From Synechococcus sp. HJ21-Hayes (GTDB lineage Bacteria > Cyanobacteriota > Cyanobacteriia > PCC-6307 > Cyanobiaceae): a stretch of 64,000 nucleotides of DNA. The notes beneath the pieces are model-generated. The model was not told the DNA's origin, did not search any database, and saw only the letters and a program-made list of their open reading frames with translations. Position 1 is the first letter of the stretch. Every line of letters starts with the position of its first letter. This document shows, piece after piece, positions 748-51,038 of this stretch. Both the position numbers and the translations under genes were made by a program. Location of the stretch: positions 1-64,000 of the forward strand of contig NZ_JAGQBW010000015.1 of NCBI RefSeq assembly GCF_024345835.1. Direction: 5' to 3'.

Positions 748-1473
748 ATGGCCACCGAACGGCTGCAAAAAGTCCTGGCCGCGGCAGGCCTCTGCTCCCG
801 GCGCCGCGCCGAAGATCTGCTGCGCGCCGGCCGGATTCAGGTGAATGGAGCACCGGCGGGCCTTGGGGATCGGGCCGATCCAGATCGCGATCGCATCTGC
901 CTCGATGGCCACCCCATCGCCGCCGCCGCCGTCCCCGTGGTGGTGCTGCTCAACAAGCCCACCGGGGTGGTCTGCAGCTGCCACGATCCGGAGGGTCGCC
1001 CCACGGTGCTCGACTTACTGCCCACGGACCTCGCCCGTAGCCAGGGGGTGCACCCTGTGGGGCGCCTGGATTTTGAAAGCCGTGGTGCCCTGCTGCTCAC
1101 CAACGACGGCAGCCTGACCCTGCGCCTCACCCATCCCCGCTACCAACACAGCAAGACCTACCGGGTCTGGGTGGAGGGCGATCCAAGCCAGTCCAGCCTC
1201 GATCGCTGGAGTCGGGGCGTGCCCCTAGAGGGGCAACCGAGCCAGCCGGTGCAGGTGCGGCGCCTCGGGCGCGAGCGGGGCCAGACCCTGCTGGAATTGG
1301 TGATGAGCGAGGGCAGAAATCGCCAGATCCGGCGCACGGCTGAACTCCTGGGGCACCGGGTGCGCGACCTCCAGCGCATCGGCATCGGCCCCCTGGAGCT
1401 GGGCGAGCTGCCGGAAGGGCGCTGGCGGCGGGTTGATCCTCGAGAATGGGGTTACAAGGAACCCAGGGGTTGA
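748..1473 (+). CDS. rRNA pseudouridine synthase, RsuA/RluB/RluE/RluF family
   Basis: Isomerises specific uridines of 16S or 23S rRNA to pseudouridine in the cytoplasm. 241 residues from the ATG at 748. The first ~60 residues form an S4 RNA-binding domain (ERLQKVLAAAGLCSRRRAEDL...GRIQVNG). The catalytic domain carries the family signature around GRLDFESRGALLLTNDG, with the catalytic Asp in GRLD, and later GRNRQIRRTAELLGH. Longer upstream reading is possible, but the S4 domain begins immediately after this ATG, which supports the start chosen. The stop overlaps the start of the next gene (TGATG at 1471-1475), suggesting coupled translation. The exact target uridine cannot be read from the sequence. 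Confidence 0.92.
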   Translation: MATERLQKVLAAAGLCSRRRAEDLLRAGRIQVNGAPAGLGDRADPDRDRICLDGHPIAAAAVPVVVLLNKPTGVVCSCHDPEGRPTVLDLLPTDLARSQGVHPVGRLDFESRGALLLTNDGSLTLRLTHPRYQHSKTYRVWVEGDPSQSSLDRWSRGVPLEGQPSQPVQVRRLGRERGQTLLELVMSEGRNRQIRRTAELLGHRVRDLQRIGIGPLELGELPEGRWRRVDPREWGYKEPRG

Positions 1474-2408
1474 TGCCACGGCTCGCCACCAAGCTCCCCC
1501 TCTCCAATCGCCTGGGGCGCTGGCTGCAGCGGGGTAAACAAGCGATGCCCCCTGCGGCCAACGGCGCACCCGCAGCGGAGGATCCCCTACTGCAGGTGGG
1601 ACGTCTGATCAGGCAGGAGCGCGACGCCCGGGGCCTGAACCTGCGCCAGCTGGCCCTCGAGACCCGAATCAGCACCCCCGTGCTCGAAGCCCTCGAGCGG
1701 GGTTGGCGTGATCGGCTGCCAGAGGGGGCCTACCTACGCACGATGCTGCCCCTGATCGAGCAGCGCCTGGAGCTGCCGAAGGGCAGCCTGGATGTAGCCC
1801 TACCTCCCCAACAAGCGAACGGTGGACCAAACGGGAGCTGCAGGGTCGGTCTGCTGCAACGCTTCACGCCGGGATCAATCGACGTATTCAGCACCTGGCA
1901 GGGCACCGTGCTCTACGGCGGCCTGACCCTGGCGCTGATCTACGGGGTGAACCTGCAACAGCAACAGCTGGCCGCGGCCAATCTGCTCAGCCTGCGGCCG
2001 ATCCCGCCGCTCCCTCCTACGGAACAGGTCAAACCCGCCGCGCCCGGCACCAGCCTGCTGGGGGCCTACCCGGAACTGCGCCCGCTACAGCAGGTCAGTC
2101 GGGGCCTGGCCGTGCAACAACTGCAACGGGGCCGAACCCAGGCCTCCAGCAGCAGCGGCATCCTCAGCCTGAACCTCAGCCAGCCCAGCCGCCTGCAACT
2201 CAGCAGCGAGGGCGGCCAACGTACCAACCTGCAGGGGGCCAGCGGCGAGCTCGTGCTTCAACTCCAGGCGCCGCTCAGCCTGCAACTCGAGCCAGCCCCC
2301 AAGGCCGGTGAGGTGACCTGGAACGGCGTTCCCTTGCAGCCTTTGGCCCAGCAACCGGGGCAGTTCAGGCTGCCGCAGCCGCGGCAGCCGGCTGTTCAGC
2401 GGCCGTAG
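1473..2408 (+). CDS. RodZ-like membrane-anchored helix-turn-helix protein
   Basis: 311 residues starting at the ATG that overlaps the preceding stop by one base. Residues ~35-100 form a Cro/C1-type HTH of the RodZ kind (VGRLIRQERDARGLNLRQLA...LEALERGWRDRLPEGAYLRTML). A single transmembrane segment follows (GTVLYGGLTLALIYGVNL, about residue 145). The C-terminal part is rich in Gln, Leu and Pro and ends in a small beta-rich region like the periplasmic DUF4115 domain. In other bacteria RodZ links MreB to the cell-wall elongation machinery; that role here is inferred from architecture only. The 3' end overlaps convergent malQ by 13 bases. Confidence 0.75.
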   Translation: MPRLATKLPLSNRLGRWLQRGKQAMPPAANGAPAAEDPLLQVGRLIRQERDARGLNLRQLALETRISTPVLEALERGWRDRLPEGAYLRTMLPLIEQRLELPKGSLDVALPPQQANGGPNGSCRVGLLQRFTPGSIDVFSTWQGTVLYGGLTLALIYGVNLQQQQLAAANLLSLRPIPPLPPTEQVKPAAPGTSLLGAYPELRPLQQVSRGLAVQQLQRGRTQASSSSGILSLNLSQPSRLQLSSEGGQRTNLQGASGELVLQLQAPLSLQLEPAPKAGEVTWNGVPLQPLAQQPGQFRLPQPRQPAVQRP

Positions 2409-3895
2409 CGCCTGGCCATCTCCCCAAGGCCCTGCAGGGCCCCATCCAGCGAGGCGATCGAACGATGCAGCCGCCACTGCCAGTTGCCGCTGGCGGTGCC
2501 AGGGGTGTTGAAGCGGGCCTCATCGCCCAGGTTGAGCAGATCCTGCAGGGGCACCACCGCCAGATCAGCCGACGACTGCAGGGCCAACTCCAGCAGCTGC
2601 CAGCCGGGGGAATGCACGGCCATGCCCAGCTGTTCTTCCACCCGGCGGCGCTCGTGGTCGCCGAGGGACTGCCACCAGCCAATGCAGGTGGCGTTGTCAT
2701 GGGTGCCGGTGTACACCACCCAGTTGCTGCCGCGATAGTTCTCCGGCAGGTAGGGGTTGTCCGTTGAGCCGTCGAAGGCGAATTGCAGGATCTTCATGCC
2801 CGGCAGGGCGTAGTGATCCCGCAGGGCTTCCACCCCAGCGGTGATCACGCCGAGATCTTCCGCAATCATGGGGAGGTGGCCGCCCGCCAGGCGGCGGTGC
2901 AGGCGCTCCAGCAGCGCCCGGCCCGGGGAGCGGTGCCAGACGCCATGCTCGGCTGTGGGGTCTGTGCCAGGCACCAACCAGGCCGCCTCCAGGGCGCGGA
3001 AGTGGTCGAGGCGCAGCAGGTCGTAGAGCTCGAGCTGGCGCTGGAGACGCCGCACCCACCAGCGGAAGCGGGTGACTCTGTGCAGGGCCCAGCGGTACAC
3101 GGGGGTGCCCCACAGCTGGCCGGTGGCGGCGAAATAGTCGGGCGGAACGCCGCTCTGGGTCACCAGAGAACCGGAGGCGCGCACGGAAAAGAGGCGGCGA
3201 TGGCTCCAGACATCGGCGCTGTCGTGGGCCACATAAAAGGGAAGATCCCCCACCAGCTGCACACCATGGCTGCGGGCCCGGTCCATCAGGCGCTGCCACT
3301 GCAGCTGAAGTTGCCACTGCACCAGGGCTTCCTGCAGCAGCCCATCGGCCTGATCGCGGTCGAGAGCCGCCAGGGCACGGCGGCTGCGGCGCACCAGCGG
3401 GGCCGGCCATTGCCACCAGGGGGTCTGGCCATGCAGACGGCGCAACACCATGAAGCGGCAGTGATCCAACAGCCAGTCCTGCTGGCCGCGCCAGTGCTCG
3501 AAGGCCTCGTGCCACGCGGTGCCACGGGAGGGCCAGCGCTGCAACAGAAGCGCACCCAGCACCTCGGCCCGACGGTTGGCCAGGTTGAGATCCAGGCGAT
3601 CGCTGACTCCATCGCGGGGCAGAGCGTCCAGATCGCCCGCTTCGAGCAGGCCATCAGCCACCAGCCGCTCACTATCCAAGAACCAGGGGTTCAGGGCGAA
3701 CCCACTGGGGGAGCTGTAGGGCGAGCCCGTGCCATCCGGCGGCGCCAGGGGCAGCAGCTGCCACACGTGGATGCCCTGCCGCGCCAGGGCATCAATCCAC
3801 TCCTCGGCGGCAGCGCCAAAACTGCCGGAACCGGGCGTGCCCGGCAGGGCGGTGGGATGCAGGAGAACGCCGCAGCGGCGGGCAGGGCTGGTCAA
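2396..3895 (-). CDS. malQ: 4-alpha-glucanotransferase (amylomaltase, GH77)
   Basis: Transfers alpha-1,4-glucan segments between oligosaccharides (disproportionating enzyme) in glycogen or maltodextrin metabolism. 499 residues, the normal length for the plant/cyanobacterial DPE1 type. Family motifs: GVLLHPTALPGTPGSGSFG at the N-terminus, LVGDLPFYVAHDSADVWSH, the region LRLDHFRALEAAWLVPG (catalytic Asp in RLDHFR), MIAEDLGVIT (acid/base Glu) and YTGTHDNATCIGWW. Start taken as TTG at 3895, which overlaps the TGA of the upstream bciB-like gene (TTGA) and places translation just before the conserved ARRCGVLLHPTALPG. A longer N-terminus would read through bciB coding sequence. Confidence 0.95.
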   Translation of the reverse strand: MTSPARRCGVLLHPTALPGTPGSGSFGAAAEEWIDALARQGIHVWQLLPLAPPDGTGSPYSSPSGFALNPWFLDSERLVADGLLEAGDLDALPRDGVSDRLDLNLANRRAEVLGALLLQRWPSRGTAWHEAFEHWRGQQDWLLDHCRFMVLRRLHGQTPWWQWPAPLVRRSRRALAALDRDQADGLLQEALVQWQLQLQWQRLMDRARSHGVQLVGDLPFYVAHDSADVWSHRRLFSVRASGSLVTQSGVPPDYFAATGQLWGTPVYRWALHRVTRFRWWVRRLQRQLELYDLLRLDHFRALEAAWLVPGTDPTAEHGVWHRSPGRALLERLHRRLAGGHLPMIAEDLGVITAGVEALRDHYALPGMKILQFAFDGSTDNPYLPENYRGSNWVVYTGTHDNATCIGWWQSLGDHERRRVEEQLGMAVHSPGWQLLELALQSSADLAVVPLQDLLNLGDEARFNTPGTASGNWQWRLHRSIASLDGALQGLGEMARRYGR

Positions 3896-5124
3896 ATTTT
3901 GGGCAACCGATAGCGGCTGATAATTTTCTTGGCAAAGGCAGGGATCTGGGCTTCGGCCTTGGCCGGATGGTTGCGGCGCAGCCACAGGGCGTTGCGGGTG
4001 AAGTGGGAGTCGATCGAGAAGCGGCCGTACTCGAGCCCCTTGGGGCCGAAGCGCTGCACGAACACACCAATCAACTCAGCCAGCCACATGGGCAGCTTGA
4101 GCGCTTTGTCGTAGGCCTCAATGCCCTGCTGCACGGCAGCCTTACGATCGCCACGACTCATCACCGGGGCCACATCGAGCTCCGCCTCCACCAGATCCAG
4201 CAGCTCCTGGCCCCTGGGGTTCCGCACAGTGATCCATTGGCGCCCGAAAGTGGCCCCCATGTAGCCCACCACCAGATCGGCTCCGGCGTTGGTGTAGTCG
4301 AAGCAACTGAGGCAGCTGGACGCAAACACGTCCTTGAGCCTGGGGGTGTCGAGCCCGAAGAAGGGCACTGTTTCCTCGCGGCCGTCGCTGTGGCGGAAGT
4401 GGATGCGGAAATCCTGCATGAACTCGTAGTGCACCACCGTGTCCGGGGAGCTCACGGTGCTCTCGAGAAAGGTCTGCAGTCCGTCGCGGCTCACGTTGTC
4501 CACGCAGGGGAGCCCCAGCACATAGAGCTGCTCAAGGGGCAGGGTGGACTGCACGGCCCGCAGGGCCTGGATCTGACAGCCCACGCCGATGGCCAGCAGG
4601 CGCTTGATGCCACTGCCGGGCAACTGCTCCAGCACCTCCAGATTCGGCGAGAGCGTGGGCTTGTTCACCCGTGCCGCCAGCACCTGCTCCGGCGTGCGGG
4701 CCAGTACGGGCACCGGCGTGAAGCGGTCATGCTCGCTCTGCCCAACGCACAGCACCGCGTCCACCAAGCCCGTTTCCAGGGCCCGCACGCCAAGGCGGCT
4801 CACGATGCCTGTCCACTGGGCCCCCTCGATGGGCTGAGCCAGGCGTGCGCTGAACATGCGCTGCTGCACGCCGAAATAGAGCTCGTCCTCGTTGTCGAGG
4901 TTGCGGCTGCGGCCATGGGCCGCCGTTTCCATCGCCTCGAAACGCTGGTGAAGGAAGGCGCATGCATCCTTCACATAAGCCACCCAGCGGCTATCGCACA
5001 AGCCGCACTGGCTGCACAGATCCTTGGCGGGGTAGGTGCTGCCCTTGGCCAGAGGCTGGGCGCGCTCGTGGGGAGCGAGCTGGGGAGAGGGGGCGGAAGT
5101 CAACGGGGTGGGCCTGCAGGCCAA
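3892..5124 (-). CDS. bciB: Ferredoxin-dependent 3,8-divinyl (proto)chlorophyllide a 8-vinyl reductase (F420 hydrogenase beta-like family)
   Basis: 410 residues of the coenzyme F420 hydrogenase/dehydrogenase beta-subunit family, which in cyanobacteria includes BciB (Slr1923 type) and in plants 7-hydroxymethyl chlorophyll a reductase. The N-terminal cluster motif CSQCGLCDSRWVAYVKDAC and a second CLSCFDYTN cysteine set indicate 4Fe-4S clusters. The family also binds FAD. BciB reduces the 8-vinyl group to ethyl in chlorophyll a synthesis; the genome may hold a paralogue, so assignment to this rather than HCAR activity is by family and organism. It lies directly upstream of malQ with a 4-base overlap. 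Divergent from the LCP protein gene. Confidence 0.82.
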   Translation of the reverse strand: MACRPTPLTSAPSPQLAPHERAQPLAKGSTYPAKDLCSQCGLCDSRWVAYVKDACAFLHQRFEAMETAAHGRSRNLDNEDELYFGVQQRMFSARLAQPIEGAQWTGIVSRLGVRALETGLVDAVLCVGQSEHDRFTPVPVLARTPEQVLAARVNKPTLSPNLEVLEQLPGSGIKRLLAIGVGCQIQALRAVQSTLPLEQLYVLGLPCVDNVSRDGLQTFLESTVSSPDTVVHYEFMQDFRIHFRHSDGREETVPFFGLDTPRLKDVFASSCLSCFDYTNAGADLVVGYMGATFGRQWITVRNPRGQELLDLVEAELDVAPVMSRGDRKAAVQQGIEAYDKALKLPMWLAELIGVFVQRFGPKGLEYGRFSIDSHFTRNALWLRRNHPAKAEAQIPAFAKKIISRYRLPKI

Positions 5125-5216
5125 TCCGGATGCATCAACCTATCGGCCTCGACGGCCTACCCAGGGCAAAATGCAAACAGCTGCGTCAAAGTGGGTCGAT
5201 TTTCCACTGGCGCGCC

Positions 5217-6164
5217 ATGGTCCCCAAAGGGGCAAGGCCCAAGACCCCACGTGGCTCCCGTCGGCGCCTCGCCCTGCGCCTGCTGGCTGCCGGCCTCGGG
5301 GTAGCCGCCGGCATGGGAACCGTGAACCTCCTGTGGCCCGAAGCGGATCGGGCCGCCAAGCCAGAGGACATTCCCACTGCCAAGGCCCTGGCGGAAGTGC
5401 CAAGCCAGGCCATCACCGTGCTGCTGATCGGCTCCGATGGCGATCGCCCTGGCACGGTGCGCAACGACGCGGCACCACTGGGCCAGGCCAACAGCGATGC
5501 CCTGCTGCTGGTAAGGGTGAACCCGCAGGGGCCTGTGCAGGTGCTGACCCTCCCCATCGAGACCGCCGTGCAGCTGCCAGGTGATCAGAAGCCTGTGGCC
5601 CTGGGCAGCCTCTACCGCCGCGGCGGCCCGGCCTTGGTGGCGGGCGCGGTGGCCGCGCTGGTGGGCTTGCCACAGGGCCAACCCCAGCGCTACCTGGTGC
5701 TGCCCCGCGGTGCCCTGCGCACCCTGGTGGACGACCTGGGCCGGGTGGAAATCGCCCCCGACCGCACCATGAACTACACCGACAAGGCCCAGAAGCTCAC
5801 GATCAAGCTGGATGGCGGCTTGCAATGGCTGGGGGGGCAACAGCTGGAACAGCTGTTGCGCTTCCGTGATGAGGAGCGCGGGGAAGAGGGGCGGCGCGAG
5901 CGGCAACAGCTGGCCGTGGAGAGCCTGCTCAAGCAGATGGGCCACCCGCAACAGCTACAGCAGCTGCCCAACCTGATCAACAAGCTCCAGAACCAGGTGG
6001 ACACGAACCTCAGCCAGGGTGAGGTGCTGAGCCTGCTAGCGGCGGCCCTGCAGCAGAGCGAACCCGTGCGCTTCCGCAGCCTGCCCCTGAAGCCCCCTGT
6101 CAAGCCGGGAGATTCCCTGCGCCAACTCGCCCCTGAGGCCCGAGATCAGCCCTGGCCCAACTGA
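5217..6164 (+). CDS. LytR-CpsA-Psr (LCP) family protein
   Basis: 315 residues from the ATG at 5217. A basic N-terminus (KGARPKTPRGSRRR) followed by one hydrophobic segment (LALRLLAAGLGVAAGMGTVNLLW) indicates a single membrane anchor with an outside C-terminal domain. The LCP core is seen as ITVLLIGSDGDR, NSDALLLVRVNP, VQVLTLPIETAV, the DDLGRVEI segment and QLLRFRDEERGEEGRRERQQ. LCP enzymes attach glycopolymers to peptidoglycan in other bacteria; the cyanobacterial substrate is not established. Tail-to-tail with the next gene with a 19-base overlap. Confidence 0.85.
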   Translation: MVPKGARPKTPRGSRRRLALRLLAAGLGVAAGMGTVNLLWPEADRAAKPEDIPTAKALAEVPSQAITVLLIGSDGDRPGTVRNDAAPLGQANSDALLLVRVNPQGPVQVLTLPIETAVQLPGDQKPVALGSLYRRGGPALVAGAVAALVGLPQGQPQRYLVLPRGALRTLVDDLGRVEIAPDRTMNYTDKAQKLTIKLDGGLQWLGGQQLEQLLRFRDEERGEEGRRERQQLAVESLLKQMGHPQQLQQLPNLINKLQNQVDTNLSQGEVLSLLAAALQQSEPVRFRSLPLKPPVKPGDSLRQLAPEARDQPWPN

Positions 6165-6697
6165 AGCGCGCCTGGCTCCGCCAGGGCCTGCCAGCGCACC
6201 AGGCAGTGGTGGCGCAGGGCCGCTAGATCTGCCTGATCGGCCTCGCCATCCGCCAGGGGTAGCCAACCCAGCCAGGGCAATCCATCAGAGCGCCGCTCGC
6301 CAGGCTGCCACGCACCACCCCACTGCACCAGGCCCACCAACGGCACCCCGGCCATGGCCAGCAAGGCCCGGTAGGCAGCCGCAGGGCCGGAGCCGGCGGC
6401 CGCTCCCGACACCACCAGCAACGTGGGCTGGCGCCAGGCCCCGAGGGCATCGGCCCAACCACCGCCAGAGCCCAACCAGGCCCCGGGATCAAGCCCCAGG
6501 GGCTGCAACCAGGCCGCTGGGCCAGGCCGCTGGGCCAAGGCCGCCAGGGCGGTGGCGGGATCGGCCCGGGGATCCTGAAGGGGCGGCAGACACTCCAGCT
6601 GCAACAGCTGGGCCAGGGCCTGGTCAGCAGCAGCTAACACGCCTGCGGGGGCCACCAAAACAAGCCCGGGTCCTGGCCAGTGCTGGGAACTCTTCAT
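6146..6697 (-). CDS. Conserved hypothetical protein, unknown function
   Basis: 183 residues from ATG at 6697. Rich in Ala, Gly, Leu and Trp. Alternating hydrophobic strands (GLVLVAPAGVLAAAD, TLLVVSGAAAGSGPAAAYRALLAMAGVPLVGLVQWG) look like a Rossmann or P-loop-type alpha/beta fold reminiscent of dethiobiotin synthetase/CobQ relatives, but no Walker A motif (GxxxxGKS/T) is present, so no activity is assigned. Divergent from prs with 69 bases between starts; overlaps the LCP gene at the 3' end. Confidence 0.6.
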   Translation of the reverse strand: MKSSQHWPGPGLVLVAPAGVLAAADQALAQLLQLECLPPLQDPRADPATALAALAQRPGPAAWLQPLGLDPGAWLGSGGGWADALGAWRQPTLLVVSGAAAGSGPAAAYRALLAMAGVPLVGLVQWGGAWQPGERRSDGLPWLGWLPLADGEADQADLAALRHHCLVRWQALAEPGALQLGQG

Positions 6698-6732
6698 GGT
6701 GATTTGCAGCCTGGGAACCGAGTGGCTTCTAC

Positions 6733-6751
6733 GATCGGGTCTCAACCGATC
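6733..6751 (+). promoter_or_regulatory. Short inverted repeat in the prs leader
   Basis: GATCGG (6733-6738), 7-base spacer, CCGATC (6746-6751), 15 bases before the likely GTG start of prs and between two divergent genes. It could be an operator or a small leader hairpin; the arms are only six bases, so chance is possible. Confidence 0.25.
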
Positions 6752-6766
6752 ACGCCAGCGGCCGCC

Positions 6767-7762
6767 GTGACCAGTTTCCTGACCGCAGAACGGGTGGAAC
6801 AGGCGAGCCTGCCCCACGACACCCGCAGGCTGCGGCTGTTCAGCGGCACCGCCAACCAGGTTCTGGCCCGGGAAATCGGCGCCTACCTGGGCGTGCCCGA
6901 TGGCCCACGGGTGATCAAGCGCTTCGCCGACGGCGAGCTCTACATCCAGATTCAGGAATCGATCCGCGGCTGCGACGTATTCCTGATTCAGCCCACCTGC
7001 GCTCCGGTGAACGACCACCTGATGGAGCTGCTGATCATGGTGGACGCCTGTAAGCGGGCCTCGGCACGCCAGATCACCGCCGTGATCCCTTACTACGGCT
7101 ATGCCCGCGCCGACCGCAAGACCGCGGGGCGCGAGTCGATCACCGCCAAGCTGGTGGCCAACCTGCTGGCCAAGAGTGGCGTGGACCGGGTGCTGGCCAT
7201 GGACCTGCACTCCGCCCAGATTCAGGGCTATTTCGACATTCCCTGCGACCACATCTACGGCTCACCCGTGCTGGTGGATTACCTGGCAGGCCGCGACTTC
7301 GGCGACGTGGTGGTGGTGTCTCCCGATGTGGGCGGTGTGGCCCGGGCCCGCGCCTTCGCCAAGAAGATGAACGATGCCCCTCTAGCGATCATCGACAAGC
7401 GCCGCTCCGGTCACAACGTGGCCGAGAGCCTCACGGTGATCGGTGATGTGGCCGGCAAAACGGCGATCCTGATCGACGACATGATCGACACCGGCGGCAC
7501 CATCTGTGCCGGTGCCCGGCTGCTGCGTCAGCGCGGCGCCACCCGCGTGCTGGCCTGCGCCACCCATGCCGTGTTCTCACCTCCGGCGGTGGAGCGCCTC
7601 TCCGAACAGGGGCTGTTTGAGGAGGTAATCGTGACCAATTCGATCCCCCTCACCGACGATCGCCGCTTCCCCCAACTGCAGGTGTTGTCCGTGGCCAACA
7701 TGCTTGGCGAAGCCATCTGGCGCATCCACGAGGAGAGCTCCGTGAGCTCGATGTTCCGTTGA
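6767..7762 (+). CDS. prs: Ribose-phosphate diphosphokinase (PRPP synthetase)
   Basis: Makes 5-phosphoribosyl 1-diphosphate from ribose 5-phosphate and ATP for nucleotide, histidine, tryptophan and NAD synthesis. 331 residues from GTG at 6767, matching the usual picocyanobacterial N-terminus (TSFLTAERVEQASLPHDT). Motifs: FSGTANQVLAREIGAYLG, FADGELYIQIQESIRGCDVF, the flexible-loop sequence YARADRKTAGRESITAKLVANL, MDLHSAQIQGYFDIPCDH, and the PRPP-binding loop ILIDDMIDTGGTICAGA. The stop codon overlaps the TTG start of the downstream glycosidase gene (TTGA), so the two are probably co-translated. Confidence 0.97.
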   Translation: MTSFLTAERVEQASLPHDTRRLRLFSGTANQVLAREIGAYLGVPDGPRVIKRFADGELYIQIQESIRGCDVFLIQPTCAPVNDHLMELLIMVDACKRASARQITAVIPYYGYARADRKTAGRESITAKLVANLLAKSGVDRVLAMDLHSAQIQGYFDIPCDHIYGSPVLVDYLAGRDFGDVVVVSPDVGGVARARAFAKKMNDAPLAIIDKRRSGHNVAESLTVIGDVAGKTAILIDDMIDTGGTICAGARLLRQRGATRVLACATHAVFSPPAVERLSEQGLFEEVIVTNSIPLTDDRRFPQLQVLSVANMLGEAIWRIHEESSVSSMFR

Positions 7763-8982
7763 AGGGCTCCGCGCCTGAACCGGCCCAGACCCATCCCTTT
7801 CGCCTCTCCACGCGCCTGAAACGGGCCCTACCAGCCCTGCTCACGGCGCTCGTGACAACGGGGCTGCAGACCTTTGGCGCCCTAGAGGCTCGAGCCACTC
7901 AGCGGCGGGTGGGGGTTTGGCTCACCAACAGCCCCAGCCCCCTCTATTACGAGCCGGCGCGCATTGATCAGGCCGTGGCGGACTTGGCGGCTGCCGGCTT
8001 CAATACCCTCTATCCCAACGTGTGGAGCCGCGGCACCACGTTCCATCGCAGCCGCTGGGCACCAATGGAGCCGGCCCTAGCGAAGGCCAACCCGGGCTTC
8101 GATCCCATCTGCCGCATGACCCAGGCGGCCCATCGCCGGGGGCTCAAGGTGATCCCCTGGTTCGAGTACGGGCTGATGGAGCCCGCCGAGGCGGCCGTGG
8201 TACGCCAGAACCCCGAGTGGGTTCTGCAGAAACGCGACGGCAGCACCGACTTGATCATGCATGGCAAGGCCATGGTGTGGCTCAACCCGGCCCATCCCGG
8301 CGTACGCCAGCGCTTCATCGGCCTGATCGGCGAGATCGTGCAGCGCTGCAGCGTGGACGGCATCCAGCTCGACGACCACTTCGCCTGGCCCGTGGAACTG
8401 GGCTACGACCCTTACACCCGCGCCCTCTATCGCCAGGAGAAGGGCAGCGATCCCCCTAACAACCACACCGATCGCGCCTGGATGACCTGGCGGCGCCACC
8501 AGCTCAGTGGCCTGCTGCGGGAGCTGCGCAACACCCTCAAGCAAAAGGGCCAGAGCAGCCCCTATGTGAGCCTCTCACCCGGGCCCTTTCGCTTCGCCTA
8601 CAACCACTGGCTGCAGGACTGGGAGATCTGGGCCCTGGGCGGCTTGATCGAGGAGCTGGTGGTGCAGAACTACGCCTACTCCGTGCAGGGGTTCGCCAAG
8701 GATCTGCAACAGCCCGCCCTAGTGAAGGCCAGCAGCTGGGGCATCCCCGTGGAGATCGGCATCCTCTCGGGCTTCGGCGGACGCACCACCCCAATCCCCA
8801 CCCTGAATCAGAAGGTGCGCCTGGCGGCAGACCGCAACCACGGCGTCATCTACTTCTATTGGGAAGGGCTGTGGGGCCTGCATGCCGGCCCTGAAGGTGG
8901 CGAGGCCCGCAAGGCGGGGTTGCGCCAACTGCACAACAGCCTGTTCCCCGATCCCTTCCCCCGCTCCAGCAGCCAGCGCTAG
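7759..8982 (+). CDS. Glycoside hydrolase family 10-like (GHL10/DUF187) secreted protein
   Basis: 407 residues from a TTG overlapping the prs stop. The N-terminus has a basic stretch and hydrophobic core (STRLKRALPALLTALVTTGLQTF...RATQ) consistent with a signal peptide or anchor. The mature part is a TIM-barrel of the GHL10 family: GVWLTNSPSPLYYEPARI, AGFNTLYPNVWSRGTT, GLKVIPWFEYGLMEP, VDGIQLDDHFAWP and GVIYFYWEGLWG. Members are predicted to act on cell-wall or extracellular polysaccharides, but substrates are mostly unknown. Ends with a 4-base overlap against convergent pepN. Confidence 0.85.
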   Translation: MKGSAPEPAQTHPFRLSTRLKRALPALLTALVTTGLQTFGALEARATQRRVGVWLTNSPSPLYYEPARIDQAVADLAAAGFNTLYPNVWSRGTTFHRSRWAPMEPALAKANPGFDPICRMTQAAHRRGLKVIPWFEYGLMEPAEAAVVRQNPEWVLQKRDGSTDLIMHGKAMVWLNPAHPGVRQRFIGLIGEIVQRCSVDGIQLDDHFAWPVELGYDPYTRALYRQEKGSDPPNNHTDRAWMTWRRHQLSGLLRELRNTLKQKGQSSPYVSLSPGPFRFAYNHWLQDWEIWALGGLIEELVVQNYAYSVQGFAKDLQQPALVKASSWGIPVEIGILSGFGGRTTPIPTLNQKVRLAADRNHGVIYFYWEGLWGLHAGPEGGEARKAGLRQLHNSLFPDPFPRSSSQR

Positions 8983-38130: not shown

Positions 38131-39824
38131 TCAGCCCTCAATGCGCACCCAGTGGCTGAACAGCGCCTCCATCTGGCCGCGGGCCAGCCAGGCATTGATG
38201 TAACGGCACAGGGCAACGTCATCCCCGGCAATCGCCCACACCAACTCCCCGGCAAGGCGATCTGCAAAGGGAGCGATCAAGCTGGTCCGCGGGTGCAGCA
38301 CGGCCCAGGACGATCCAGCTTCCGCCGAGATGAGCAACCCATCGAAACAGGCCGGGCCGGCGGCGGAGAAGAACTGGCGCTTGTCGGCCAGGGGCAACAG
38401 CTGCAGGCTGAGCTGGCCCGAGGGTCCCACCAGCTCACTGCGGAGCTGATCCCTGAGGTCGCCCGTGAGCAGTTGCGGATCACTCACCGCCAGCACCAGC
38501 GGCCTGCCTACCAGATGCACCCGCTGGTCGCCCTGGCTTAACTGATGGCGCACCGCCCTTTGTGGGCTGGTCTGGATCCCGCCAACCGCCAGCTCGATGC
38601 GGCCGGAATCCAGCCAGCTCTCGAGGGCCTCCAGGCAGGCCTCACGGACCTCGAGCCGTACCCCCAGGCTGCGCACAAGGCCTTCCACCAGATCGATGTC
38701 GTAGCCCACCAGCTCACCGCGGGCTTTGCGGTACGCCCAGGGCAAACCATCGGCCCGCACCCCAACCCGGAGCACACCGCGCTTGAGGATCGCCGCCAGG
38801 GAAACAGGCTCAGGGATGAGCTGGCGGAGCGCAGCCGATTGCGGGCGAGCGGCTGCGGAACGCAGACCCAGGAGTTTCTGGTCGTTGCGGTAGGTGCCCT
38901 GAAGGGAACGCGCCAAATAGGCACGGGCCGCCGCGCCGAGGCCGGAGGGGATTGAGCCGCAGGGCGCCCACTACGCGTGCGTACAGCAGAACCGCAAGCA
39001 CCACCAACCCCTCGGGGGCCAACACCTTCTCGAAGCGGTAGAGCCACTCACCATTGATGTACACGAGCTGGAGTAGGTCCATGGACAAACCACGGGTCTG
39101 CAACTCCTGGCGCATTACCGCCTTCAGGCTTAACACAGCAGCGGGGATGGCCGTGAGCAACATACGAGCTGTTTCGCTGGGCTGAAGCGGTTGGTCCACG
39201 TACCAGCCCGCAAACGGGATGAACCACAGGGCGGCCACCTGCCCCAAGGTGGGCAGGGCAAATCCGAGCGACACCAGGGGAACGATTTCATCAACAGCCT
39301 CGGGATGATGCTGCTGGGGATCCAGTGCCACCGGCAACTCCTGGCGCAGGTTGGCGACCAACAGCGGCAGGGCCATCAGCAAGTTCGCACTGCTGGCTTT
39401 GAGCGCCAGGGGGTCAGTACCAGAACCGCTCGAACGCACAGCAGGCTCAGCAGCAGAAAGGCCACCAGCGAGTGCTGAAAAAGCCGTGAATACGCAACAG
39501 CTGCGGCCAGTCAAGCCGCACCACATTGAGAGCCGTAATGGGAAAAATGCCGTAGAGAATGACGAGTGCCACCAGCTTGCTAAGGCGCGCAAACAGCTGG
39601 CGCATCACCTCCAGAGGCTCGAGCAGCCGGCCCTTGTTATCGACACCCTAGAGCAGCACCCCGAGCACTGAACTGAACAGCACCACGGCGGTAAAGCTAT
39701 CGTCAGCCAGACCACTGAAAATGTTATCCAGAAGATAGACACCCAGCAGAGCAAGCGAGGCCAACGCCTCAAGACGTTGGCAGCATGGGACCATCGACGG
39801 GCCCTGGCCCTGCTCAGCCAACCG
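38131..39824 (-). pseudogene. Decayed dicarboxylate/amino-acid:cation symporter fused to a solute-binding domain
   Basis: Read on the minus strand the protein is recoverable only by changing frame. From ~39821: EALASLALLGVYLLDNIFSG and SFTAVVLFSSVLGVLL, an in-frame TAG at 39650-39648, then LLEPLEVMRQLFARLSKLVALVILYGIF (DAACS symporter helices). A frame change near 39480 (T run) gives QHSLVAFLLLSLL; another near 39411 (C run) gives SSANLLMALPLLVANLRQELP and SLGFALPTLGQVAALWFIPFAGW. A third near 38953 (C run) enters an SBP_bac_3 solute-binding domain: LAAILKRGVLRVGVRADGLPWAYR, GELVGYDIDLVEGLVRSLGVRLEV, ending FSHWVRIEG. The first symporter helices are missing and the 5' end overlaps the divergent channel gene. 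Homopolymer indels could be sequencing errors, but the TAG and 5' loss support real decay. Confidence 0.75.
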
Positions 39825-40903
39825 TCAGCACAAGCGTGAGATCCCAGACAGCAGGCGTGCTCCAGCACCAACCACGGGTCATCAAGCCCCACAAACCATC
39901 CTGGTGGCATTGGGCAGCAGGATGGTTTGTGGCTCTTTCCTTGACACTCCTACTGGCATGGCCACAGGCCTCTGAGGCCGCAGCACCGCCACCCTCTCAG
40001 CCGCGCCTGGTCCCCTTGTCCGTGTCGATGGATGTGGACAACGTCTACGGCTTCTCCTCCCGTGACAAGACCTACACGGTGGAAGGCACCCTGCAGGTGA
40101 CAGCGCCAGAAACAGAGATGGGGCAGTGGCTCGCAGCCGGAATCGATCCGATCAGCCTGCTGCGCTTTCAGAACATGGTGCAGCCATGGAACTCTGCGGT
40201 GGAACCAACAAGCAGCGCAATTCGTGCGGGAAGCAATCTGGGCAAGAATTATCGCTTCAACGGCAGTTTTTATTCTGACGAGATCGACTATCGCAGCTAT
40301 CCCTTTGGCGCCCTACCACTGACACTCCACCTAGCACCTGATCCGAGTTTTCCCACTGCCATTGCCGATCCACCAGCCATTCGCCTAGAGGCCATCCAAG
40401 AGGGCTCCGGCGTTAGCAAGCGCACTAACATGAATGGCTACAAACTCGCGAGCTGGCGCCTCTACAACGAGACCGAGGGAGTCAGAATGGAGCTCACCTA
40501 CCAGCCGATTGGCTGGGCAGCCCTGGTGAAGTGGCTGATGCCCCTGGCCATCACGATGACCGTGATGCTGCTCACCCCAAATCTGCGCTCCAGCTTCAGC
40601 TCAGAGCGCCTCGCCATTCCACCGGTCGTCCTGCTGACGTTGGTGTTCATGCAACAGGCCTACCGCGACAGCCTGCCCTCCCTGCCATACCTCACGGTGC
40701 TCGACGGCTTGTATGCGTTTTCCTATCTGGCGACGCTGATCTTTTTCTGCGAATTCATCTGGTGCGCCAACGTCATGGACCGGTACGCCACAGGCAACAC
40801 CGCTCCCATGCAACGGCGGGCTGAGCGACTGGAGGTGCTGTTACAACTGGCCAGCCTGGGGGGCTATGCAGTGTTGCTGGTGTGGGCTTGGGCCCAGCGC
40901 TGA
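39785..40903 (+). CDS. Probable pentameric ligand-gated ion channel (Cys-loop receptor-like, GLIC-type)
   Basis: 372 residues from ATG at 39785; GTG at 39836 is an alternative. A signal peptide (WWHWAAGWFVALSLTLLLAWPQASEA) leads to a beta-rich extracellular domain (~70-245): LVPLSVSMDVDNVYGFSSRDKTYTVEGTLQV, and DEIDYRSYPFGALPLTLHL (~165-183), matching the D-x-x-x-YPFD-x-Q-x-L pattern of the Cys-loop family without cysteines, as in prokaryotic members. Four C-terminal helices follow: M1 with the mid-helix Pro (LVKWLMPLAITMTVMLL), M2 (ERLAIPPVVLLTLVFMQQAY) with Glu at its cytoplasmic end, SLPSLPYLTVLDGLYAFSYL into M3, and M4 (LEVLLQLASLGGYAVLLVWAWA). M2-LP..PY-M3 resembles GLIC from memory. Ligand and ion are unknown. 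Lower GC than neighbours suggests transfer. Confidence 0.62.
   Translation: MGPSTGPGPAQPTVSTSVRSQTAGVLQHQPRVIKPHKPSWWHWAAGWFVALSLTLLLAWPQASEAAAPPPSQPRLVPLSVSMDVDNVYGFSSRDKTYTVEGTLQVTAPETEMGQWLAAGIDPISLLRFQNMVQPWNSAVEPTSSAIRAGSNLGKNYRFNGSFYSDEIDYRSYPFGALPLTLHLAPDPSFPTAIADPPAIRLEAIQEGSGVSKRTNMNGYKLASWRLYNETEGVRMELTYQPIGWAALVKWLMPLAITMTVMLLTPNLRSSFSSERLAIPPVVLLTLVFMQQAYRDSLPSLPYLTVLDGLYAFSYLATLIFFCEFIWCANVMDRYATGNTAPMQRRAERLEVLLQLASLGGYAVLLVWAWAQR
39889..39932. repeat. 15-bp perfect inverted repeat inside the signal-peptide region of the channel gene
   Basis: CCACAAACCATCCTG (39889-39903) and its exact complement CAGGATGGTTTGTGG (39918-39932) flank a 14-base loop. The element lies within codons for the hydrophobic signal segment and near the point where the divergent symporter remnant begins. 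As RNA it would form a stable hairpin soon after the start codon. It is not followed by a T-tract, so a terminator is unlikely. Confidence 0.6.
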
Positions 40904-46809: not shown

Positions 46810-48072
46810 TTATGGCCTGATCAAGCGCCCCAGAAGCGCCAGCTCGCGTCCCTGCTGCTGCATCAGCCCCCAGCGCACACGCCAGGGGGCCACGACGAAC
46901 AATCGCAACATGGCAGCAATGAGCTGGGGAAGGCTGAGGGTGTTAGTGAGGAAGCCAAACCACTGCTCCGCCGGGAGGCTGAAGAAGGTGGCGAAAAAGG
47001 CCCGTAGCTGATCCTCGGGGTATCGCATCAGCTTCTCCAGGCCAAAGCGATACAACGCATGCTTGCGTTGCAGCTCGAGGGGCCAAAGGGCCTGCCAGGC
47101 TTGGTGCGACAGCTGATCAATCGATAGCTCAGGCTGCCTCAATCCAGCGGCGATCGCCTCAGCCAGGGCAGGAGCTCGGCGCAACAGCGAACCCACCATA
47201 TAGCCCGATGCAGGATGAACCATCGAGGCGGAACCGCCAAAGGCCAGCACCCGCTGCCGAACATCCGGCAGCGGCAGGTTCATCGGAAACAGACAGTGCT
47301 CCTCGTGTTGCACGTCCAGGACATCGACACCGCGGTGAGCTAATCGCCGCAGCAGTCGGTCCTTGAGCAGGTCGTAAGGAACCGCTGGCGCCAGCGCCAG
47401 GGACGTTTCCTCCACGAAAAACATCCCCTCACCGACATCCATCGCATAGAGGAAGGTGGGAGGGCCGCAGCGGCGCTCCGCCTCACTGAGGTGGTCGCAG
47501 CGATAGTCCATCAGCACGAACTGCCCGGGATTCACCGGTGGCAGTGAGAAGCGGCCCACGATGCCGTAGGCAGCCTGGCCTGCCACCGGCCCCTCATCGG
47601 GACGCTGCACAAAGGCCGCCCTGTGGCCACTGGCATCGATCACCAAACGGGCCGCGATCAACGCGCCATCCGCGGTGAGCACCCTGGAGCCGCGAGCATC
47701 GTGCTCAATGGATGCCGCCACACCACGCTGCCAATCCACACCGCCGCGCAGACACTGCGCAAGCCAGTGCTGCTGCAGGGCGGTTTTATCAAACAGGCCG
47801 TAGTCGATGCCGTGTTGCACGGCGGAACTGGCGACGGCATCGCCGAAGTAGCTCCGGGTGTCACTCCAGCGATGGCCCAAGAGATGCTGCAAGCCCAACG
47901 CATCCACCTCAGGCCCCCAAACCCCATAGGTGTTGGGCCAAGGAGCGGCAGGGTCGTCCGGGGCCAGACCCTGCACGGCCAGACCGCGCTCAGCCAAAGC
48001 GCCGGCAATGCACAGGGCAGCAGGCCCTGCGCCGATCACCAGCACCTCAACAGGCTCAGCAGGCTGCCTCAC
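46810..48072 (-). CDS. crtL: Lycopene cyclase (CrtL family)
   Basis: 420 residues from GTG at 48072, which overlaps the upstream stop (GTGA); an ATG 15 bases earlier is possible. FAD-binding N-terminus VEVLVIGAGPAALCIAGALAERGLAVQGL, then APWPNTYGVWGPEVDALGL, RLVIDASGHRAAFVQ, FVLMDYRCDHL, MFFVEETSLALAPAVPYDLLKDRL and FGGSASMVHPASGYMVGSLLRRAP, all typical of plant-type CrtL. It cyclises lycopene ends to beta- (or epsilon-) rings; the ring type cannot be told by eye. Supplies beta-carotene and zeaxanthin. Confidence 0.92.
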   Translation of the reverse strand: MRQPAEPVEVLVIGAGPAALCIAGALAERGLAVQGLAPDDPAAPWPNTYGVWGPEVDALGLQHLLGHRWSDTRSYFGDAVASSAVQHGIDYGLFDKTALQQHWLAQCLRGGVDWQRGVAASIEHDARGSRVLTADGALIAARLVIDASGHRAAFVQRPDEGPVAGQAAYGIVGRFSLPPVNPGQFVLMDYRCDHLSEAERRCGPPTFLYAMDVGEGMFFVEETSLALAPAVPYDLLKDRLLRRLAHRGVDVLDVQHEEHCLFPMNLPLPDVRQRVLAFGGSASMVHPASGYMVGSLLRRAPALAEAIAAGLRQPELSIDQLSHQAWQALWPLELQRKHALYRFGLEKLMRYPEDQLRAFFATFFSLPAEQWFGFLTNTLSLPQLIAAMLRLFVVAPWRVRWGLMQQQGRELALLGRLIRP

Positions 48073-48428: not shown

Positions 48429-51038
48429 TCAGGCCTCGGTGCTGGCGCTGGCAGCCGCAGGGGCTTCCAGCTCGGTCTCCTCGGGAGCGGGGGGCACTAG
48501 CACCACTTCGGAGAGGCGGTCGCCGGAATCCAGCTTCTGCAGCCGAACGCCGGTGGCCGCTCGCGACTGCTGGGGCACTGCATCGGCCTGCATGCGCACA
48601 ATCACACCCCGCTCGCTCACCAAGAGGAGCTCCTCACCGGCCCCCAGCACCTTGAGGCCCACGAGCACGTCGCCATCGCGCCGGAACTTCATGCAGCGCA
48701 GGCCCATACCCGCCCGCTTCTGCAGCCGGAACTGATCCACCGGCACCCGCTTGCCCAGGCCGCTGGCCGAGGCCACCAGCACCCAGGGGCCTTCGCTGGG
48801 AGCCAGCTCCTCGCTGTCGCCCTCGTCATCCTCGCCAGCGGCGGCACCTTCCACCCGATCGGCGAGTTCCACCGGCAGCACATCCATGCTCACCAACTGA
48901 TCGCCCGGCCGCAGGTTCATGGCACGAACGCCGCGGGCCGTGCGGCCCAAGGGACGGAGCTCCTCATCACTGAGGCGGAAGTGGATGGTCATCCCATTGC
49001 GGGAGCCGATCAACACGCTGTCGCCTGGGAGGGCCAGGCGCACCCAGGTGAGGGCATCGCCCTCCTCGAGGGAGATGGCGATCAAACCGTTGGAGCGGAT
49101 ATTGCCAAAGGCGGAAAGCCGCGTGCGCTTCACATAGCCACCGCTGGTGAGCATCACCAGCACCATGTTGTCTTCGAAGGCGCTCACTGCCAGCAGCGAG
49201 GTGATCAACTCCTCCCGCGGGATGGGCAGCAACTGCACGATCGGCGTGCCCTTGGCCGCCCGGCTACACATCGGAACCCGGTAGGCCGGCACGGAGTACA
49301 CCACACCGCGATCACTGAACAGCAGCAGGGAATCGTGGTCGTTGCAGCTGATGAACAGCTTCACGGCCTCTTCACCATGGCTCTTGGTGCCGGCCTTGCC
49401 ACGGGTACCGCGGCTCGTGGCCTCAAACTCACTCACCGGCATCCGCTTGAGATAGCCGTTCTCGGTGAGCAGCACCACTGAGCGCTCGTTGGCGATCAAG
49501 TCGATGTCCTCGAGCCCACCCTCGAGGTCGAGGATCTCGGTGCGACGGGGCGAGTCGTAGCGGGTGCGGATCGACTGCAGCTCTTCGGTGATCAGGGCCA
49601 GGACCCGCTCCTTGCGGGCCAGGATGTCCTTGTAGTCGGTGATCTTGGCGAGCAGGTCCTCGTGCTCCAGGCGGATCTTGTCGGCCTCCAGGGCCGTGAG
49701 CCGCCGCAATTGCATCTGCAGGATGGCGTCGGCCTGGATCTCACTGAGGCCAAACTGGTCCTGGAGCTCCTGGCGGGCGGTGGCGGTGTCCGCCGCGCTG
49801 CGGATCAGGGCAATGATCGCGTCGAGGTTATCGAGCGCAATCAGCAGGCCGAGCAGAATGTGGTCGCGTTCCTCGGCTTTGCGCAGCAGATAACGGGTGC
49901 GGCGCTCGATGGTCTCAACGCGGAACTCAAGGAACACCTCGAGCATCTTGCGCAGGGTGAGCAACACCGGCTCCCCCTTCACAAGCGCCAGCATGTAGGC
50001 ACTGAAATTGCTCTGTAGAGGAGTGAGTTTGAACAGGTTGTTCAACACCACCTGCGGGTAGGCATCCCGCCGCAGTTCAATCACGATCCGCATGCCATCG
50101 CGATCAGATTCATCGCGGATGTCGGCGATGCCCTCGAGCTTCTTGTCGTTCACCAGTTCGGCGATGCGCTCGATCAGGCCCGCCTTGTTGGTCTGGTAAG
50201 GCAACTCGGTGATGATCACCGCATCGCGGTCGGGGCGGCCCTTGCCCTCCACGGTCTCGATCTGGGCCACGCCCCGCATGGTCACCGAACCGCGGCCGGT
50301 GCTGTACATCTCGCGGATCCCCCGCCGGCCGAGGATCTGCCCCCCGGTAGGGAAGTCCGGCCCCGTGATGAGTGCCGTCAGTGCCCGGTCCTCAAGGCCT
50401 GGGTTGGCGATCAGGGCCAAGAGGCCGTCGATCAGCTCAGTGAGGTTGTGGGGTGGGATGTTGGTGGCCATCCCCACGGCGATGCCCGTGGAGCCGTTCA
50501 GCAAAAGCTGGGGGATGCGGGCAGGCATCACCGTGGGCTCCTGCTGGGACCCATCAAAATTGTCGATGAAATCGACGGTCTCGCTCTCGATGTCCTCGAG
50601 CAGGCTGTCGGTGGTGAGGGCCCGCAGCCGCGACTCGGTGTAGCGCATGGCCGCCGGCGGATCGTTGTCCACCGAGCCGAAGTTGCCATGCCCATCGATC
50701 AAGGGCATGCGCATGGAGAAGTCCTGCGCCATCCGCACCAAGGCGTCGTACACCGCCGTGTCGCCGTGGGGGTGGTACTTACCCAGCACCTCACCCACCA
50801 CACGGGCGCATTTGCGGTAGGGCCTGTCGCTAGTGAGGCCCAGCTCGTACATCGCGTACAGAATGCGGCGATGCACCGGCTTGAGGCCGTCGCGGGCATC
50901 GGGCAGGGCCCGGCCCACGATCACGCTCATCGCATACTCCAGATAGGAGCGCGACATCTCGTTGCGCAGGTCCGCCTGGATGATCCGCCCGTCGGAGTCT
51001 CCGGGAGTGAGTTCTCCGGGTCCGCTTGGATCCGCCAT
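48429..51038 (-). CDS. gyrA: DNA gyrase subunit A
   Basis: 869 residues. ATP-dependent type II topoisomerase subunit that cuts and rejoins DNA and introduces negative supercoils with GyrB. The breakage-reunion domain has [68 protein letters not shown] (quinolone-resistance region), and the catalytic Tyr in [11 protein letters not shown]. The C-terminal beta-pinwheel begins after the coiled coil and holds the GyrA-box-like [12 protein letters not shown] (about residue 560), separating gyrase from topoisomerase IV. Divergent from the HcyBio gene by 45 bases. Confidence 0.96.

Follow-up and report, generated by a model that had tools for sequence, protein, structure and literature searches.

A Synechococcus homolog of pentameric ligand-gated ion channels with a Pro-Pro-Val pore motif, from a branch largely overlooked by standard domain models

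Pentameric ligand-gated ion channels (pLGICs) include those by which nerve cells sense neurotransmitters; for the bacterial members, natural ligands and physiological roles are, to our knowledge, largely unknown. The pore helix (M2) of one of these, GLIC, is not known to have a proline at position 4' or 5'. Another, ELIC, is encoded in an operon that includes an amino acid decarboxylase, and primary amines open it (PMC3119659). Bacterial pLGICs with PBP-I fusions and PBP-II neighbors are described by Tasneem et al. (PMC549065), and Jaiteh et al. (PMC4795631) tabulate the conserved positions of the pLGIC, or Pro-loop receptor, superfamily. In the sections consulted, both papers record Synechococcus pLGICs as single sequences, so that pLGICs of picocyanobacteria were already on record. 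Bacterial pLGICs, including those of Synechococcus, and the theme of a binding-protein partner are thus already known.

Here, we describe a pLGIC gene of the freshwater picocyanobacterium Synechococcus sp. HJ21-Hayes, located in a stretch of 64,000 nucleotides (contig NZ_JAGQBW010000015.1, positions 1 to 64,000; hereafter the window) whose relevant features are listed in Table 1. The gene is a single open frame of 372 codons (39785-40903, plus strand), and the opposite-strand frame tested at this position is interrupted by stops. Orthologs with 56-73% identity are found in Cyanobium, Synechococcus and Aphanothece (12 named picocyanobacterial records), and dN/dS between the window gene and these orthologs is 0.16-0.26, about 0.2 (NG86; a rough value, as dS exceeds 1). 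Because of this conservation and these ratios, we consider the frame a gene and no chance ORF, and its pattern of substitutions indicates purifying selection. The first ATG is a doubtful start, because the ortholog proteins seem to begin ~20 residues ahead of the hydrophobic core: the true start probably lies downstream, and GTG 39857, the nearest in-frame candidate upstream of the signal-peptide core, is a putative choice. The signal peptide proposed in the first-pass annotation was recovered as a signal-peptide-like N-terminus (WFVALSLTLLLAWPQASEA/A).

Table 1. Features of the pLGIC locus and of the ancestral site in the window
Feature	Position	Strand	Basis
Decayed sodium:dicarboxylate symporter (SDF) fused to an SBP_bac_3 domain; truncated, frameshifted	38131..39740	-	Domain scan; comparison with L034
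pLGIC subunit gene, first ATG to stop	39785..40903	+	ORF, homology, predicted fold; real start probably later
Signal-peptide-like segment SWWHWAAGWFVALSLTLLLAWPQASEAA	39899..39982	+	Sequence; orthologs have an equivalent hydrophobic segment
Extracellular (periplasmic) beta-sandwich domain, model strands E9-25 to E166-175	40007..40507	+	AlphaFold; Foldseek to GLIC/ELIC/sTeLIC
Pro-loop tip Y-P-F-G; fourth position Gly instead of canonical Asp	40298..40309	+	Sequence; motif definition in PMC4795631
M1 helix with conserved M1 proline; Gln replaces canonical pre-M1 Arg	40511..40582	+	AlphaFold, alignment
M2 pore helix: Glu-1', Arg0', Ala2', Pro4', Pro5', Val6', Leu9', Phe13', Gln16', Asp20'	40589..40669	+	AlphaFold, alignment
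Adjacent M2 prolines 4' and 5'	40619..40624	+	Sequence, alignment
M3 helix	40697..40783	+	AlphaFold
M4 helix	40802..40897	+	AlphaFold
Lycopene cyclase-like gene, direct divergent neighbor of the pLGIC in orthologs (ancestral site)	46813..48051	-	Synteny
gyrA, flanking the orthologs' (ancestral) pLGIC site on the other side	48477..51038	-	Synteny

Homology of the encoded protein to pLGICs can be taken as settled from sequence comparison. A single-sequence phmmer search against the PDB reaches ELIC at 4e-5, and with a profile built from 27 relatives E falls to 1.5e-20 for ELIC and to 7e-14 for GLIC, the match extending over the full length and thus over both the extracellular domain (ECD) and the transmembrane domain (TMD). 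The AlphaFold2 model, a monomer predicted from a 60-row alignment of the protein's own relatives, has a pLDDT of 92 and a pTM of 0.83 and consists of a beta-rich domain (residues 9-175) followed by four helices (177-200, 203-229, 239-267 and 274-305). Its best 50 Foldseek matches in the PDB are all pLGICs (E 8.5e-20 to 1.6e-17, TM at most 0.80) and include GLIC and its chimeras, sTeLIC, ELIC and the glycine receptor; by this prediction, a pLGIC fold is very likely. The Cys-loop-receptor architecture that the first-pass annotation had read from the letters, with a beta-rich outer domain and four C-terminal helices M1-M4, was thereby confirmed: the profile extends to ELIC and GLIC, and the modeled outer domain finds GLIC, ELIC and sTeLIC. 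Searches with neurotransmitter-gated channel domains gave a different picture, with only 13.8 bits against Pfam Neur_chan_memb (PF02932, cut-off 28.1) and 17 bits against NF033918 (cut-off 500) where the family profile reaches known channels. None of the 27 relatives passes the Pfam cut-off (best E 3.5e-4), and such genes are therefore easily missed. Failure at the Pfam and NCBIfam cut-offs is a limit of the models and bears on annotation only; Pfam alone was rejected as a detector, as it overlooks the family.

ELIC is the best natural sequence match. The two proteins share the layout of an ECD followed by M1-M4, a Glu at -1', Leu9', an M2-M3 loop of the form LPxLPYxTVxD and an ungapped alignment of M2, from which we took the M2 numbering. 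The M2-M3 loop of the window protein (SLPSLPYLTVLD) had been likened to GLIC; the resemblance is there, but the loop resembles that of ELIC (LPRLPYTTVID) at least as much. ELIC differs in that identity to the window protein is ~20% in the structural alignment, in having Ser4', Phe5' and Thr6' in place of Pro-Pro-Val, and in the canonical Pro-loop Asp, which the window protein lacks. The residue aligned with the loop-B Phe of ELIC is Asp, so that a classical amine box is not evident. The genomic settings differ as well: an amino acid decarboxylase gene lies next to that of ELIC (PMC3119659), whereas none adjoins the window gene. Like the window protein, GLIC is cyanobacterial and Cys-less, and Foldseek ranks GLIC structures among its top matches (TM 0.72-0.80), but its identity to the window protein is 13-14%.

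Across the superfamily, the Pro-loop proline after F/Y is absolutely conserved, while the Pro-loop Asp (93%) and the pre-M1 Arg (94%) are typical but not required (PMC4795631). The window protein, whose Pro-loop reads SDEIDYRSYPFG, has this proline (YP at 40298-40303), and the YPF signature noticed earlier (DEIDYRSYPFG) is in place; the M1 proline, the M2-M3 proline, Arg0' and Leu9' are also retained. The canonical Asp and Arg are replaced by Gly and Gln. Nearly all orthologs have Gly for the Asp, and the pre-M1 position is Gln, Asp or Glu, with Arg in one; a single ortholog (L005) keeps both residues, which are missing too in much of the wider branch. Prompted by this ortholog, we looked for co-evolution of the two positions and found no significant association (independent pairs across the tree, median p 0.6-1). 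Among the 128-131 relatives compared, practically every one has the prolines of the Pro-loop, of M1 and of the M2-M3 loop and an Arg or Lys at 0'. Because the two absent hallmarks are not universal in the superfamily, we regard membership as secure, in the Cys-less bacterial type: the ECD contains no cysteine and hence no Pro-loop-flanking disulfide pair, which excludes the animal Cys-loop subgroup.

Of 300 genomes of the same GTDB family, 115 (in 19 of 59 genera) have a match to the family profile; Neur_chan_LBD (PF02931) detects only 3 of 151 in this family. Within the genus, 18 of 25 genomes have pLGIC matches, with up to five per genome; besides the window gene, the window's own genome contains a single intact paralog (C2:84396, 33%) and a single remnant (C5:75463). 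A genome of this genus (G001) shares 3.9 kb of identical sequence with Vulcanococcus limneticus LL, which makes Vulcanococcus the probable genus. Remnants between dnaJ-like and hemB-like genes are seen in two genomes, this one (G000:C5:75463-75687; L003, L032) and a second (G024:C1; L037), and L181 has an intact pLGIC at apparently the same site, which seems to be a shared site of gene loss.

The gene's lower GC content had been read in the first-pass annotation as a sign of acquisition. The difference is real, at 59.9% against 64-70% in the flanking genes and 67.0% in the whole window, with a GC3 of 0.71 against 0.79-0.89 in neighboring genes. Recent horizontal acquisition would further fit the long stem of the ortholog group on the tree and the displacement of the window copy from the ancestral site. 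However, our phylogeny of the members places the window gene inside a picocyanobacterial ortholog clade (SH-aLRT 100), the family is an expanded one, and in related genomes the orthologs, whose GC matches that of their hosts, sit between gyrA (some with a small intervening gene) and a divergent lycopene cyclase gene. The window has this gyrA/lycopene cyclase junction at ~48 kb with no pLGIC in it; the gene is found at 39.8 kb. Because the window copy still lies in the neighborhood of the orthologs' site, gene order favors vertical inheritance, followed by a local move, over recent acquisition. Phage, plasmid and viral records and contigs searched for the gene gave no match, and carriage by such elements was rejected. 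With synteny and tree both against it, recent acquisition is largely refuted, and we give it very little credence.

Directly beside the pLGIC gene, on the opposite strand, lies the decayed SDF-SBP_bac_3 gene, which is open over its full length in L034. An intact copy is found two genes from the ortholog in L034 and L104, and similar genes lie near L102 and L103; in all, the gene accompanies four of the 11 assessable orthologs and is decayed in one of the four. Around the Cyanobium-type orthologs, the sequence available past the lycopene cyclase gene, ~1.6 kb, revealed no such gene. The setting recalls the binding-protein-linked channels of PMC549065, as sister subfamilies have PBP-I adjacent or fused and some orthologs have the PBP-II-type SBP_bac_3 nearby; in the window, however, the would-be partner gene has decayed, and the majority of orthologs lack one. 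A link of the SDF-SBP_bac_3 gene to the ortholog group is suggestive only, and a universal binding-protein partner was rejected for this group and several other subfamilies, most orthologs having no adjacent one. Given the frameshifted neighbor and the second pLGIC remnant in the same genome (G000:C5:75463), the window gene could itself be decaying or non-functional, and a dN/dS averaged over a whole branch would be compatible with a very recent loss of expression; the full-length open frame, the retention of all core pore residues and a dN/dS of about 0.2 make this highly improbable.

M2 reads Ser-2' Glu-1' Arg0' Leu1' Ala2' Ile3' Pro4' Pro5' Val6' Leu9' Phe13' Gln16' Asp20' Pro23'. Its two adjacent prolines (IPPVV), correctly spotted in the first-pass annotation, had been thought odd for a pore helix, a view that comparison within its branch does not bear out. 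Among 131 distinct relatives from picocyanobacteria, other cyanobacteria, Myxococcota, Gammaproteobacteria and Verrucomicrobia, 127 have Pro4', which is a branch hallmark spread over several phyla, and both Pro5' and Val6' are invariant in the window's ortholog group (14/14 sequences). The alignment identifies Pro-Pro as a lineage trait; the prolines as a sign of decay were rejected given the prevalence of Pro4', and the modeled M2 helix continues through both. The tree explains Val6' by one change and requires four for Pro5'. All but one of the 131 relatives have an acid at -2' or -1', and Glu-1' in 14/14 orthologs places an acidic ring at the cytoplasmic mouth (-2'/-1'), from which we infer cation selectivity.

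The same helix bears on whether the protein conducts at all. Outside the ortholog group, 116 of 117 relatives have Thr6'; all 14 orthologs have Val instead, by that one change on the tree, and with it the 2'-13' pore face lost its only polar ring. The Pro-loop Asp/pre-M1 Arg pair is gone in nearly the whole group as well. The protein might then be a receptor of pLGIC fold that barely or no longer conducts, its hydrophobic Ala2'-Pro4'-Pro5'-Val6'-Leu9'-Phe13' pore being shut, and that signals conformationally or merely binds a solute. We take this alternative into account because the 2'-13' pore face is wholly hydrophobic, yet consider it unlikely: Glu-1', Arg0', Leu9', Phe13', Gln16' and Pro23' are invariant in the ortholog group, as expected of a selected pore, and hydrophobic gates exist in channels that do open, such as ELIC.

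The reading we favor, on the basis of sequence conservation and the predicted fold, is that the gene probably encodes a cation-permeable channel subunit that senses a periplasmic solute as part of a homopentameric ligand-gated channel of the cell envelope. As we infer it, the pentamer would expose its beta-sandwich ligand domains to the periplasm, and M2 would line the pore. A periplasmic solute, by itself or via a binding protein, would move the extracellular domain; this movement would open the hydrophobic gate (Leu9', Phe13'), and the membrane potential or the cation content would change, cations being allowed through by the ring of acidic side chains at the cytoplasmic mouth that the Pro4' branch carries. 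The channel may formerly have been helped by the binding-protein domain whose gene decayed in this genome. Against the channel reading stand the Gly and Gln at the Pro-loop Asp and pre-M1 Arg positions and the absence of a polar ring on the 2'-13' pore face, and the link to a partner is strong for sister subfamilies but weak for the window's ortholog group.

In the subfamily with the M2 motif DARxxIP, a divergent Peripla_BP_6 gene accompanies the pLGIC in 26 loci and is missing in about three assessable ones. In another subfamily, whose hosts are Myxococcota, Halieaceae (Gammaproteobacteria), Verrucomicrobia and marine Synechococcus (WH7803, L138, among them), 24 of ~30 loci have a gene for an UrtA-like binding protein next to that of the pLGIC; in most cases the two share a strand and abut or overlap. 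Of the four UrtA-like proteins scanned, two exceed the UrtA cut-off (TIGR03407). Loci with an UrtA-like periplasmic binding lipoprotein gene directly beside the pLGIC are L138 (2764-5195, Synechococcus WH7803), L105-L123, L130, L149, L151 and L159. Other cyanobacteria encode the binding protein and the pLGIC as one fusion, with the binding protein at the N-terminus. L173 carries tandem genes of ~1185 codons (900-4463 and 4550-8101) that encode Peripla_BP_6, a pLGIC core and, after M4, SBP_bac_1, a layout that would put two binding-protein domains on the periplasmic side. At L178 and L179, two pLGIC genes lie ~4 kb apart, each with a divergent Peripla_BP_6 gene and with an ABC1-kinase gene between them; they could encode two subunits of a heteromer. 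Neither the UrtA-like pairing nor the C-terminal fusion was found described in the literature searched, whose coverage is incomplete.

A further subfamily, absent from the window's genome, is encoded by the last gene of a same-strand cluster comprising a histidine decarboxylase, a Cache-like membrane protein, an MFS transporter and the pLGIC. Clusters of this kind occur in related genomes at L180 (5474-11095), L184 (2735-8229), L185, L186 and L187, with a Crp-type regulator upstream in L184. The decarboxylase scores 369.6 bits against NF002748 (cut-off 305), and the Cache-like protein has a sub-threshold match to dCache_1. Histidine decarboxylase is present in 7 of the 300 family genomes, all seven of which carry the cluster pLGIC subtype, and the two genes are 2.6-3.2 kb apart in 6/6 genomes with both on one contig. 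Because the ELIC operon has a decarboxylase and primary amines open ELIC, an amine ligand is plausible by analogy for the channel of this cluster; this says nothing direct about the window gene. More tentatively, the Pro4' branch as a whole may consist of channels run by dedicated ligand-supply modules, whether UrtA-like or Peripla_BP_6 neighbors or a histidine decarboxylase-Cache-MFS-channel cluster that would produce an amine, export it and detect it. The window's group would then be a hydrophobic Pro-Pro-Val member that lost or never needed its partner. We put this forward as a possibility, less likely than not.

As far as the literature searched shows, the new elements are the extent of a Pro4' branch missed by Pfam, the Pro-Pro-Val pore group and the conserved pairings with UrtA-like genes and with the histidine decarboxylase cluster: we found no description of the family's size, of Pro4' in M2 or of these neighborhoods in that literature. 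Freshwater picocyanobacteria commonly carry members of this branch, which extends to marine Synechococcus WH7803 and almost entirely escapes standard domain models. Its neighboring genes point to candidate ligand classes, namely those of urea/amide or amino-acid binding proteins and the product of histidine decarboxylase. The window's ortholog group offers a natural experiment, having lost both the coupling salt bridge and the 6' polar ring. If channels of this branch are indeed run by ligand-supply modules, the amine-making cluster would be a bacterial counterpart of neurotransmitter signaling.
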